From: Chloroflexota bacterium
GTDB taxonomy: Bacteria; Chloroflexota; UBA11872; VXOZ01
Reading direction: 5' to 3'
NCBI GenBank assembly: GCA_022824225.1
Contig: JAJEAH010000059.1
Coordinates: forward strand, 1-39,257
DNA: 39,257 bases
In this document: piece by piece, positions 1,567 to 4,840 of the stretch
Layout: every line of letters starts with the position of its first letter
How positions within the stretch are numbered: the first letter of the stretch is position 1
Notes under the pieces: generated by a model
The model's input: the letters and a program-made list of their open reading frames with translations, nothing else
Database searches by the model: none
What the model was told of the DNA's origin: nothing
Translations under genes and position numbers: made by a program

Positions 1567-2853
1567 ATGCTTTCACGACGGACACTGTTGGCGGGCGCAA
1601 CGGCGCTGGCAGCGGCGGCTTGCGGCGCCCCCGGGTCTGCGCCGCCGCTGCCGGCCCGACAGAGCGAGGATGAACTCATTTGGGCGTCCCTGACGTTTGC
1701 CGACCTGCGCATATCGACCGGTTTTATGGGGCGCGTTCCCAATGCGATTCAGCAGGTGACGGCAGCACTGGTTGAGGACACGGAAAACCCCAACGGACCC
1801 GCCAAAGGGGGCTACACCCTCAGATCGGGTTTTGCCAGCCCCGAACAGGCCAGTATCCGTCCCCGAAACCGGACTGAACTGCTCGCGTGGTACCGGGACT
1901 TCGACGCGGACGTATTCACCGTGGGCCCGCACCAGGCGCAATTGCTGGGAGAGGAGGGCGTGCTCGCGCCCTTGGATGAACTGATCGCCGCCGACAATGC
2001 GGCGCTGCTCCAAGCGCACTACCCCTACCTGGTCGATCAGTTTCGGTCGGCGGGCGCGCTGTTCGCGTTGCCGGTCGATGCGAACCCCACCATGGTCTAC
2101 TATGATCCTGTGTACTTCGCGGAACGGGGCGTGCCGCCGGTGGACGACAGTTGGGGGTGGGACGACCTGGCGGCGAACGCGGCCGCATTGACCCAGCGCG
2201 ATGGAGACGGAGAAGCGCAGCGCTGGGGTCTGTTGACGCAAGAGGACGGCTACTGGTGGGCGTTGTGGCAAAACGAGGCGGAACTGGCCGACCCGGCGAC
2301 GCTGGCCTGCCGGCTGCAAGATGCGGCGGCTACGGAAGCCCTGCAATTTTGCCGCGACCTGCTGCATACCCATCGTGTTACGCCGCCTGCCACGGGATTG
2401 ATCGAGTGGCAGGTCTCCGCATCGTCGTCAAGTTTGTGGCCGGCAATGCTCTACCTGCCACATCAGAATTTCTCGCGAGACGGCTATCGCTGGGCGGCGC
2501 TGCCGCGCGGCAAGGTGCGCAGTGTGCCTGTGGCCGGCAACTTGGGCATTGCCGTTGCCGCCCGCGCTAAGAACACGGAAACGGCCTATACGGCGCTCAA
2601 GGGCCTTGTGGACGTCATGCAGCCGCTCGCCCTCGTGCCCGCGCGGCGAGATGCGGTGGCGCGACTTGGCGACTTCGAAAAAGACCTGCTCCCCGCGGAA
2701 GTCGCGGCCATCCAGCAATCACTGGAACACGGCCGCGGACTGCCCCCAAGCCCGGTCATGTGGGAGGCCATGCGCAGCATCGTGGCGGGCCTCGCGCGGG
2801 GTGATGACGTCGCCACGGTGGTGAGTGAGGCCTGCTCGGTAGTTGAAGCATAG
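1567..2853 (+). CDS. Extracellular solute-binding lipoprotein, family 1-like (copy 1)
   Basis: Predicted substrate-binding component of an ABC importer, anchored outside the membrane by lipid. From the ATG at 1567 the protein begins MLSRRTLLAGATALAAAAC: a twin-arginine motif (SRRTLL), a hydrophobic core and a lipobox ending at Cys19, so Tat export followed by lipidation is likely. The middle carries the family-1 signature 'ALPVDANPTMVYYD...W.WDDL...A..LT', and WWALWQNEA is shared with the next paralogue. A GTG at 1546, preceded by GGAAGGG (1528-1534), is an alternative start that would add 7 residues; translation from 1429 would bury the signal peptide and is unlikely. The ligand is unknown; sugar or oligosaccharide is a guess from the family. 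No permease or ATPase gene is adjacent, which is unusual for this family. Confidence 0.85.
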   Translation: MLSRRTLLAGATALAAAACGAPGSAPPLPARQSEDELIWASLTFADLRISTGFMGRVPNAIQQVTAALVEDTENPNGPAKGGYTLRSGFASPEQASIRPRNRTELLAWYRDFDADVFTVGPHQAQLLGEEGVLAPLDELIAADNAALLQAHYPYLVDQFRSAGALFALPVDANPTMVYYDPVYFAERGVPPVDDSWGWDDLAANAAALTQRDGDGEAQRWGLLTQEDGYWWALWQNEAELADPATLACRLQDAAATEALQFCRDLLHTHRVTPPATGLIEWQVSASSSSLWPAMLYLPHQNFSRDGYRWAALPRGKVRSVPVAGNLGIAVAARAKNTETAYTALKGLVDVMQPLALVPARRDAVARLGDFEKDLLPAEVAAIQQSLEHGRGLPPSPVMWEAMRSIVAGLARGDDVATVVSEACSVVEA

Positions 2854-3031
2854 CTACACACCTCGGTACGGGCGCTCAGAATACCCGTGCTCGAGTTTGA
2901 CTCTGCTCCTCTTTCCCACCCACGGGAGAGCGACGGTATGAGGAGTGAGGTCGGCGCGACCGAATACGGAGCGCGGCGCTCTCCCTCGCTTCGCGACACC
3001 CTCCGCGACTCTCGCCTGCCACTTGTGCCTG

Positions 3032-3043
3032 TGTCAATTGACA
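3032..3043. promoter_or_regulatory. 12-bp perfect palindrome with consensus -35 hexamer (candidate operator)
   Basis: TGTCAATTGACA is perfectly self-complementary, and its right half contains TTGACA (3038-3043), the sigma-70 -35 consensus. It opens an AT-richer stretch (about 3030-3160) in an otherwise GC-rich window, upstream of the mini-ORFs and of the second binding protein. No convincing -10 lies at 16-18 bp (3061-3066 reads CTGTCT), so promoter activity is doubtful. A dimeric repressor site is the alternative reading. Confidence 0.3.
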
Positions 3044-3132
3044 ACGATAGTCCGCATCGCCTGTCTGTTGGACATAATCCTAACTCTTATCTATTGGAAC
3101 TATAGACTCATTGCGACTAATGCGGTTTTGTG

Positions 3133-3155
3133 TAGTAGGATTTGTCAATCTACTA
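3133..3155 (+). promoter_or_regulatory. Leader hairpin upstream of mini-ORFs
   Basis: TAGTAG (3133-3138), a bulged G, then ATT can pair with AAT and CTACTA (3147-3155) around a TGTC loop, giving nine pairs with one bulge. The hairpin ends just before the strong Shine-Dalgarno GGAAGGAGGT (3161-3170). Its position suggests a structured 5' leader that could control ribosome access. It has no T tract and does not look like a terminator. Confidence 0.4.
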
Positions 3156-3175
3156 GGTGTGGAAGGAGGTGCGAC

Positions 3176-3232
3176 GTGGGCTGTCACTGTCCGTCGCTTT
3201 CTATGGGCGGCAAAGAGCAGGTCGTTCCTTAG
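3176..3232 (+). CDS. Possible 18-residue mini-ORF (leader peptide?)
   Basis: A GTG codon five bases after the near-perfect Shine-Dalgarno AAGGAGGT opens an ORF reading VGCHCPSLSMGGKEQVVP and then TAG. The peptide has two cysteines in a CxC arrangement. It ends five bases before the next Shine-Dalgarno (AGGGAGG), so the two mini-ORFs could be translationally coupled. I recognise no family. Only the strong ribosome site and tandem arrangement support it; it could be fortuitous. Confidence 0.3.
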   Translation: MGCHCPSLSMGGKEQVVP

Positions 3233-3250
3233 CTAACAGGGAGGTTAGCC

Positions 3251-3349
3251 ATGCGTAATCTGATTGGGGCACTTGCGGTCCTGTTTTTAATGGCAGCGCT
3301 GACCGTCCCCACAGTCTCTGTCCCCCTGTTCCGCGGATCTGTGGTATAG
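3251..3349 (+). CDS. Possible 32-residue small membrane or exported peptide
   Basis: An ATG is preceded at six bases by AGGGAGG (3238-3244). The peptide starts MRNLIGALAVLFLMAALTV and runs 32 residues: one positive residue near the N-terminus, then about 21 hydrophobic residues, then a short tail with one Arg. This looks like a signal peptide or single-pass microprotein. No cleavage-site call is firm and there is no lipobox Cys. It may be a leader peptide, a true small membrane protein, or the remnant of a decayed exported gene. Between it and the next gene (3350-3464) there is only a 7-codon ATG frame at 3410 and an ATG-TAA at 3448. Confidence 0.35.
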   Translation: MRNLIGALAVLFLMAALTVPTVSVPLFRGSVV

Positions 3350-3464
3350 GCAATTTGATCCTACATCTCGTAGTTGCTAGCAGCCATTTGGTGGAGAGCG
3401 AGATCAGGCATGAAGGGACGGCGCGAGTCTTGAGTCTCAAGGCGGCAATGTAAGGAGCGCTAGA

Positions 3465-4745
3465 GTGCTTACGCGCAGAACCTTGATGGTGATTACGGCG
3501 ACACTAGCCGCCAGTTGCGGCCCTTTTGGGTCTTCGCTGGAAGTACCGCAACTGTTGCAGCCAATTCCGCTGACTTGGCACGCAATGCCGGACGTCTATA
3601 GGTTTAGGGTGGGCCAGAGTTACCGAAATCCAGGGAGAATGCTCTCAGAGATTGTGGGCGCATTGGAGGAGGATGTGGAGAACCCACATGGCCCTCAGTC
3701 CGGACACTACACGCTGACAGGACACGCCTTAGAGTACCCGGCGCCGATTCCAAGGAGATTTGAAGAGATTGCGGAGTGGATCGGTGGCGTGGAAACGGAC
3801 ATACTTTCTGTAGATGCCAGATTGGCGAGTGCCCTGGGAGAGCGGGGCGTGCTGCTGCCCCTGGACCGATTCCTCGCGAACGATACGCCGACCTTCACAG
3901 AGTCGTTCTATCCGTATTTGCTCGGGCAGTTTCGCGGGAACGGCGGGCTTTACGCTCTACCGGCAAGCGCGGAACCGTTGCTGCTCCACTATGATGCCAG
4001 ATACTTTGCGCAAGAGAACGTGCCGCCGGCGGACGAGAGTTGGGACTGGGACGACTTGGTCGCGCACGCGAAGAAGCTGACGCGGCGTAGTGAAGACGGG
4101 GAATTGCTCCGCTGGGGGCTTATGTCCCACATGCAGGGGTTCTGGTGGGCACTATGGCAAAACGAAGCGGATGTCTTCGATATGACGACTGGGCGATGCC
4201 GGTTGCAGGAGCCTGCCGCTGGCGAAGCCCTGCGCTTTTGTTACGACCTGCTGCACACGCACCGAGTTTCCCCAGCTATTGGCGCGCAAGAGTCATTTCG
4301 CATTTTCACATTGCCAAACGAATCATGGCCGGCAATGTCTTATATTCCATACCAATCAATGTGGCAGCAAGGTTACGGCTGGGCGGAGTTGCCCAGGGGC
4401 AACCTGCGCAGCGTGCCGGTCCGGGCCGACGTGGGACTCGCCATTCACGCGCAAACGAAGCACACAGAAATAGCGTATATTGCGCTCAAAGGTCTGCTTA
4501 ATACCATGCAGCGGTTCGTCCACGTGCCCGCGCAGCGTGATGCGGTCGCGCGACTGGAGGAGTTTCACCCGAATCTCCCACCCGAAGAGGCGGCGGCCCT
4601 GCAACGCTCCATGGAACATGGACGCGCCCTGCCGTATAACTCGGTAGGTCCGACTATGTACCAGATTGTTGACGACATCGCGCGTGGCGCCAACGTGGCG
4701 ACCGTGGTAGACGAGGCCTGCTCCTTCTTGCGAGAGGGCAGCTAG
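3465..4745 (+). CDS. Extracellular solute-binding lipoprotein, family 1-like (copy 2)
   Basis: Paralogue of the protein at 1567-2853, clearly alignable over most of its length; for example both share WWALWQNEA and DLLHTHRV, and both have the W-x-WDDL helix. GTG start with AAGGAG (3452-3457) seven bases upstream. The N-terminus MLTRRTLMVITATLAASC gives a twin-arginine motif and lipobox with Cys18, so export and lipid anchoring are predicted. 426 residues, usual for the family. The gene reads less GC-rich than its sibling, particularly in its first half, hinting at a different history or relaxed codon bias. No transporter membrane subunits are nearby. It is preceded by the leader with two mini-ORFs, which may regulate it. 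Ligand unknown. Confidence 0.85.
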   Translation: MLTRRTLMVITATLAASCGPFGSSLEVPQLLQPIPLTWHAMPDVYRFRVGQSYRNPGRMLSEIVGALEEDVENPHGPQSGHYTLTGHALEYPAPIPRRFEEIAEWIGGVETDILSVDARLASALGERGVLLPLDRFLANDTPTFTESFYPYLLGQFRGNGGLYALPASAEPLLLHYDARYFAQENVPPADESWDWDDLVAHAKKLTRRSEDGELLRWGLMSHMQGFWWALWQNEADVFDMTTGRCRLQEPAAGEALRFCYDLLHTHRVSPAIGAQESFRIFTLPNESWPAMSYIPYQSMWQQGYGWAELPRGNLRSVPVRADVGLAIHAQTKHTEIAYIALKGLLNTMQRFVHVPAQRDAVARLEEFHPNLPPEEAAALQRSMEHGRALPYNSVGPTMYQIVDDIARGANVATVVDEACSFLREGS

Positions 4746-4840
4746 CCTGAGGTTAGATTGCAGCTAACGTCCTAGCCAACCGGCCCCGCCTCACCATGGC
4801 TGGTATTCGCCATTTGTGTCCGGCTTCCATTCTGGACCGA

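Follow-up and report, generated by a model that had tools for sequence, protein, structure and literature searches.

A candidate leader cistron dispersed in front of unlike short frames in an uncultured Chloroflexota lineage

Between two solute-binding-protein genes of a Chloroflexota bacterium, SBP1 (1567-2853) and SBP2 (3465-4745; both Pfam SBP_bac_1/8), lies a stretch without a large gene (3032-3349) in which two Shine-Dalgarno (SD) sequences each stand directly before a very short open reading frame. What do these translation signals serve? The original prediction, made from the letters of the window (the whole 39,257-nt stretch of DNA that was analysed), had described a 12-bp palindrome, a hairpin and the two frames in this stretch, and had suggested leader-peptide control, an unannotated microprotein or the relics of a decayed gene. 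All of the items that it named are present in the sequence; they are given here with the other features of the locus.

3032-3043, no strand assigned: 12-bp palindrome TGTCAATTGACA, outside the conserved block
3133-3155, + strand: 9-pair hairpin with one bulge, TAGTA-G-GATT / TGTC / AATC-TACTA, upstream of SD1 and outside the stretch common to the other copies
3163-3255, + strand: conserved dispersed leader block (93 bp; SD1, ORF1, SD2 and the ATGCG opening ORF2), four copies
3163-3169, + strand: SD1, AAGGAGG, 6 nt before a GTG; identical and with the same 6-nt spacing in all four copies
3176-3232 (to the stop), + strand: ORF1, MGCHCPSLSMGGKEQVVP, GTG start, 18 codons; open in all four copies (15-23 codons)
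3193-3211, + strand: possible hairpin P1 inside ORF1, GTCGCTT / GGGCGGC, predicted in three copies; covariation not significant
3232-3249, + strand: possible hairpin P2 with SD2 in its loop, GCTAAC-AGGGAG-GTTAGC; covariation not significant
3238-3244, + strand: SD2, AGGGAGG, before ORF2; GGAG in all four copies
3251-3349 (to the stop), + strand: ORF2, ATG start, 32 codons, signal-peptide-like; putative cargo remnant or microprotein
3465-4745, + strand: SBP2, gene for a solute-binding protein, preceded by an AAGGAG SD of its own (3452-3457)

The region is AT-richer, as had been described: its GC content is 0.50 (0.40 in 3032-3160), whereas that of the window is 0.64. Two SD-preceded mini-ORFs, of 18 and 32 codons, within 318 bp also exceed chance: dinucleotide shuffles of the region held a mean of 0.04 SD-preceded ORFs of 15-60 codons, and at least two occurred in 6 of 2000 shuffles, with SD words and codon limits that had been picked after the region was seen. 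Throughout the window there are four such ORFs on the + strand, two of them being ORF1 and ORF2, and one on the - strand. The two translation signals are not chance. The palindrome and the upstream hairpin are ordinary. Perfect 12-bp palindromes number 18 in the window, including this one, and a centroid fold gives the hairpin 8 pairs, compared with the 9 read from the sequence; proposed as parts of a leader, both exist but lie outside the conserved block. The 318 nt taken whole showed no unusual structure (z -0.90), and an Rfam 15 covariance-model search of window positions 2700-3700 returned no family at E <= 1.

Four copies of the block were found, two in the window's own genome (G000: the window and C45) and two in one congener (G001: C8 and C9). 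The 611-bp intergenic region, used as a query against the window's genome and 60 relatives, matched G001:C8:18821-18912 at 82% identity over window 3163-3255; a 116-bp core query against 41 genomes of the class matched G001:C9:893316-893417, which is 70% identical to the window block. The fourth copy, G000:C45:37369-37467, was recovered at E 5.7e-8 by covariance model R1 and was not among the three copies that formed the model's input. Copies thus came from two genomes, the same two among the 41 of the class and among the 400 of the phylum, and none was found in the four other congeners or elsewhere among the class and phylum genomes searched, the phylum search having scored the best 10 candidates in each genome listed, from which weak copies could escape. 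Where the window and G001:C8 copies are compared, the common stretch runs from SD1 to the ATGCG that opens the second frame; blastn of the 39-kb window against 19 kb around G001:C8 at 1e-3 gave the block alone, and blastp of frames of at least 90 aa at 1e-6 gave no match.

Other candidates were weak. A sequence-only model of all four copies, run on six genomes of the genus, gave one further match, L112, at 12.9 bits, which we dropped, as we did L080 (14.3 bits) and a chance-like match, L039 in G013, that scored 39 bits over 31 bases and 9.7 bits by the model. A pattern search of the 41 genomes returned six matches in five genomes, of which three are known copies and the others lie in G035, G032 and G022. 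Searches of mobile DNA gave no match to two exact patterns or to the G001:C9 cargo among viral contigs, to the G001:C8 and G001:C9 copies among plasmids, or to the window copy among phages.

Within the block, what is conserved is the start signals and not visibly the first peptide. If the frames were real, the original prediction had held, relatives should keep their start signals, and substitutions should not be spread equally over codon positions. The start signals are kept: SD1 with its 6-nt spacing and the GGAG of SD2 occur in all four copies, the conservation of SD1 being partly ascertained, since three of the four came from searches with a block of which SD1 is part. The ORF1 translations are MGCHCPSLSMGGKEQVVP in the window, MVCSCSSPSMGGKDLGRSLVQGD in G001:C8, MVCPCSCRPQWRQNH in G001:C9 and MVCPYSGRPRQRQNHLVVS in G000:C45. 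Differences at codon positions 1, 2 and 3 number 3, 3 and 2 between the window and G001:C8 (codons 1-14), and 2, 4 and 2 between G000:C45 and G001:C9 (codons 1-16). With no third-position bias in either comparison, there is no visible selection on the ORF1 peptide, and on this count the expectation failed.

The frames that follow the block are unlike one another. Every copy directly precedes a frame of 19-134 codons, the second frames being of three unlike kinds in three genomic contexts, and the distance from the ORF1 stop to the second start is 18, 2, 30 and 19 nt in the window, G001:C8, G001:C9 and G000:C45, respectively, one of them very close. The frame measures 32 codons in the window; 19 in G001:C8, where it includes a lipobox-like LVGC; and 134 in G001:C9, where it is Cys-rich with a signal-peptide-like start. 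In G000:C45 it measures 66 codons and is a decayed orthologue of the G001:C9 cargo that has lost the signal-peptide start and an inner part in frame. The second frame opens like an exported protein in three of the four copies. Pfam and NCBIfam gave no assignment for window ORF2, the approximately 134-aa frame of G001:C9 or the 179-aa gene behind the G001:C8 copy. Descent of window ORF2 from the G001:C9 signal peptide is unproven: the peptide score was reached by 12 of 1000 shuffles and the nucleotide score by 274 of 500. Window ORF2 may be a micro-ORF, or else what is left of an exported-protein gene that has been lost.

We propose, with middling confidence, that the block is an upstream cistron, dispersed but restricted to one lineage, whose translation is coupled to that of the next frame, the target in the window being the 32-codon remnant or micro-ORF. 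The strong SD1 (AAGGAGG, 6-nt spacer) starts a mini-ORF of 15-23 codons whose stop lies 2-30 nt ahead of the start codon of another frame, which has an SD of its own. Ribosomes loaded at SD1 would terminate near SD2 and would then reinitiate there or keep SD2 open, and translating ORF1 would matter more than the peptide that it encodes. The block would load ribosomes onto a short neighbouring frame, rather than control SBP2 further downstream, which would only lie behind. An upstream ORF with its own SD and start is found in four of four copies. Weighing against coupling, three of the four gaps are 18-30 nt long, and there are four copies in two genomes; by the title of PMC10666635, coupling needs overlaps or very short distances. 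Judged as sequence, the block is a real, conserved, lineage-restricted leader unit, for which coupling is plausible. Should this reading be right, frames of different kinds, at several sites, would be served by one conserved leader cistron in this uncultured lineage of Chloroflexota, and a translation-start unit would be reusable across genes outside integrons.

Coupling through short upstream ORFs is established elsewhere (PMC5574718, PMC8876359). ORF27 of iraD in Escherichia coli has 27 codons and its own SD and is coupled to the next gene, whose SD lies in a hairpin; the likeness is that of a short upstream ORF with its own SD before the next frame. There, however, a single locus is controlled by CsrA, and the stop overlaps the next start (PMC5574718), whereas the block has dispersed copies, gaps of 2-30 nt, no known regulator and a hairpin that is only a candidate. 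The ORF-11, ORF-17 and ORF-18 type of class 1 integron attI1 is an SD-led mini-ORF of 11-18 codons that serves different cargo genes (PMC8876359) and resembles the block in placing one SD-led mini-ORF before different cargoes. Unlike attI1, the block carries no attC core site, GTTRRRY, where the cargo begins (window 3244-3250 reads GTTAGCC, and the other three copies differ there), and each copy has its own site. It is unlikely, in our estimation, that the block is a portable ribosome-loading cassette of about 95 bp that spreads within the lineage and captures unrelated frames for short or exported proteins, like integron ORF-11 but without an integron.

The proposed coupling mechanism rests on order and spacing and not on folding, because the stems are unproven and the predicted opening of SD2 is clear in one copy only. 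P2 counts 6 pairs in the window copy, as it does in G001:C9, where the bases differ; in G000:C45 it is broken. The energies of the SD2 hairpins in the four copies were reached by 115, 117, 40 and 560 of 1000 shuffles. RNAalifold gave different structures from three copies and from four, and the P1 plus P2 structure over four sequences paired 74% of cells, compared with 70% in shuffles (reached by 82 of 500; slid versions were worse), so we set RNA structure aside as a conserved feature; covariation of P1 and P2 over the four sequences was not significant, being reached by 127 of 500 shuffles. With ORF1 opened, the predicted exposure of SD2 rose from 0.44 to 1.00 in one copy and from 0.47 to 0.67 in another, and showed no rise in the window (0.14 to 0.13) or G001:C9 (0.31 to 0.30). 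Upstream promoters also varied in a consensus scan: in G001:C9 a promoter-like TTGACT-16-TACAAT ends 24 nt upstream of SD1 (two in the region vs. a chance mean of 0.4), G001:C8 has a consensus promoter about 160 nt upstream of SD1, and none was found upstream of the window copy.

The Cys codons of ORF1 could point to a different role, in which ORF1 is a leader peptide whose N-terminal CxC senses cysteine, redox state or a metal, and ribosome pausing alters access to SD2. The CxC to which the original prediction had pointed is indeed present in the window and is kept in three of four copies. Cys codon 3 occurs in all four, Cys codon 5 in three and a further Cys at codon 7 in one, and the longest cargo, that of G001:C9, is Cys-rich. 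However, two or three Cys codons are the most that any copy has (2, 2, 3 and 1 in the order given above); the CxC is lost in G000:C45, in which neither Cys5 nor Cys7 remains; the cargoes tested have no family assignment linking them to sulphur or metals; and covariation of the drawn stems is not significant. Precedents exist. Mycobacterial Cys-rich upstream small ORFs, candidates in PMC4633059, are leaderless, carry Cys clusters and stand before hypothetical or cysteine genes; they share with ORF1 a small upstream frame with Cys codons, whereas ORF1 is SD-led with one to three of them. Polycysteine attenuators are cited in PMC13236596. Copper-sensing upstream ORFs with CXXC or CxxxC are described elsewhere (PMC9426467, PMC9973294): CruR (DUF2946) carries a CXXC (residues 90-93) and a RAPP (139-142) and works by way of Rho, and CutF, which is exported, combines CxxxC with a proline-rich end and acts on a stem-loop shielding the next SD. 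Both are upstream ORFs with a Cys motif, as is ORF1, but ORF1 has 15-23 codons and CxC only, with no CXXC or CxxxC and no C-terminal stalling motif. For a cysteine, redox or metal sensor, CruR, CutF and the mycobacterial ORFs would be nearest in function, and ORF1 was placed with none of them. We regard sensing as quite unlikely.

The same copies can be read as having no function, as repeats or relics that arose by duplication of the 5' end of a gene for an exported protein and are decaying in place. ORF2 is short in two copies, the G000:C45 cargo has in-frame losses that include its signal peptide, and copies occur in two genomes only. Opposed to this, SD1, its spacing and an open frame are kept in four of four copies, and where flanks can be compared, the block is better kept than its surroundings. 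G000:C45 and G001:C9 are an orthologous pair, with adjacent DNA that aligns piecewise at 75-87% and, behind the cargo, a gene for a 103-aa lipoprotein that shares 77% identity. In this pair, 80 of 95 block columns are identical (84%). The aligned upstream flank has 101 of 162 (62%; 21 of 28 next to SD1 and 80 of 134 farther away), and the fourfold sites of three pairs of orthologous genes have 316 of 514 (61%). The excess over the pooled fourfold rate is significant (binomial, about 5e-7); when the comparison is with the fourfold sites of the lipoprotein gene alone (38 of 53), the margin is smaller (about 0.002); conservation reaches about 20 nt further upstream of SD1. Because the block is better kept than both flank and fourfold sites, the pair points to purifying selection on it, with the caution that one of the two copies seems to be decaying: having lost Cys5 from ORF1 and the signal peptide from its cargo, the G000:C45 copy may be dead. 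We consider it improbable that the block is a non-functional repeat or relic. The lipoprotein itself (L079 1791-2102; L040 799-1110, minus strand) has an acidic, DxDxDG-like end, and one of the two orthologues gave a sub-threshold Excalibur match (E 0.067).

If ORF1 were the coupled leader of a small hydrophobic peptide, ORF2, the pair would make a two-peptide module like the hok/mok type I toxin-antitoxin loci. Such a module would suit the dispersed copies, the hydrophobic 32-aa ORF2 of the window and the lipopeptide-like 19-aa ORF2 of G001:C8, both right behind ORF1. It is nonetheless very improbable: the G001:C9 cargo is a Cys-rich protein of 134 aa, the ORF2 peptides of the window and G001:C8 score no higher in alignment than shuffled ones (733 of 1000 shuffles do as well), and a simple consensus scan of three copies (window, G001:C8 and G001:C9) found no opposite-strand promoter-like site.

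Least probable of all, and far from likely, is the main suggestion of the original prediction, that the leader controls SBP2, which lies downstream on the same strand (302 nt from the start of the block and 115 nt from the end of ORF2) but has an AAGGAG of its own 7 nt before its GTG. No other copy stands directly before a binding-protein gene, and with SBP2 having its own SD, the block is probably not its leader. No SBP1- or SBP2-like gene was found within the 12-14 kb covered around the G000:C45 and G001:C9 copies, and the next SBP gene downstream of G001:C8 is about 6 kb away (a distant family likeness of 21-23%, tblastn at 1e-3). Nor was a copy found before other SBP genes of the six genomes, either by whole-genome model searches or by a scan for SD, start and CxC in 28 stretches that contain SBP paralogues with their upstream DNA, among 70 sequences and covering the better-scoring paralogues only. 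The sole hit of that scan beyond the three copies then known, L046, is a 91-residue frame unlike ORF1, and we took it as chance. In two of the three contexts, the window (SBP1) and G001:C8, an SBP-family gene does immediately precede the block, and some tie to SBP loci is conceivable. Among the functions first suggested, leader activity and partial decay fit the evidence, and SBP2 as the target does not; the conserved unit goes with the small frame right behind it, probably not with SBP2 further on.

The surroundings of the window copy vary among relatives. The junction between SBP1 and a spermidine-synthase-like gene (named by reading of the sequence; window 2854-4840, L101, L102 and L103) is filled by about 80 bp in G002, in G003 by a gene of 344 aa and in G001 by a 5.3-kb insert; because relatives carry other contents there, the block and SBP2 appear as one of several fillings of a variable site. 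The G003 gene (L103 2553-3587), which fills the site equivalent to that of the window copy, shares 62% identity, across 292 aligned positions, with a 314-aa gene (L041 9712-10656) adjoining the G001:C8 copy. This is suggestive only, on the sequences compared, of the window and G001:C8 copies being orthologues that once shared a location. Within the genus, the SBP family shows strong expansion: in each of six genomes the best 29 of 59-83 candidates all match SBP2, and many of these genes stand in tandem. At the junction in G001 (L101 1868-6873), a kinase-helicase gene of 1163 aa is followed by a PLD-like gene of 505 aa; they match PADLOC MkoA (2e-227) and MkoB (2.5e-43), respectively, and may form what we take to be a Mokosh-like defence module.
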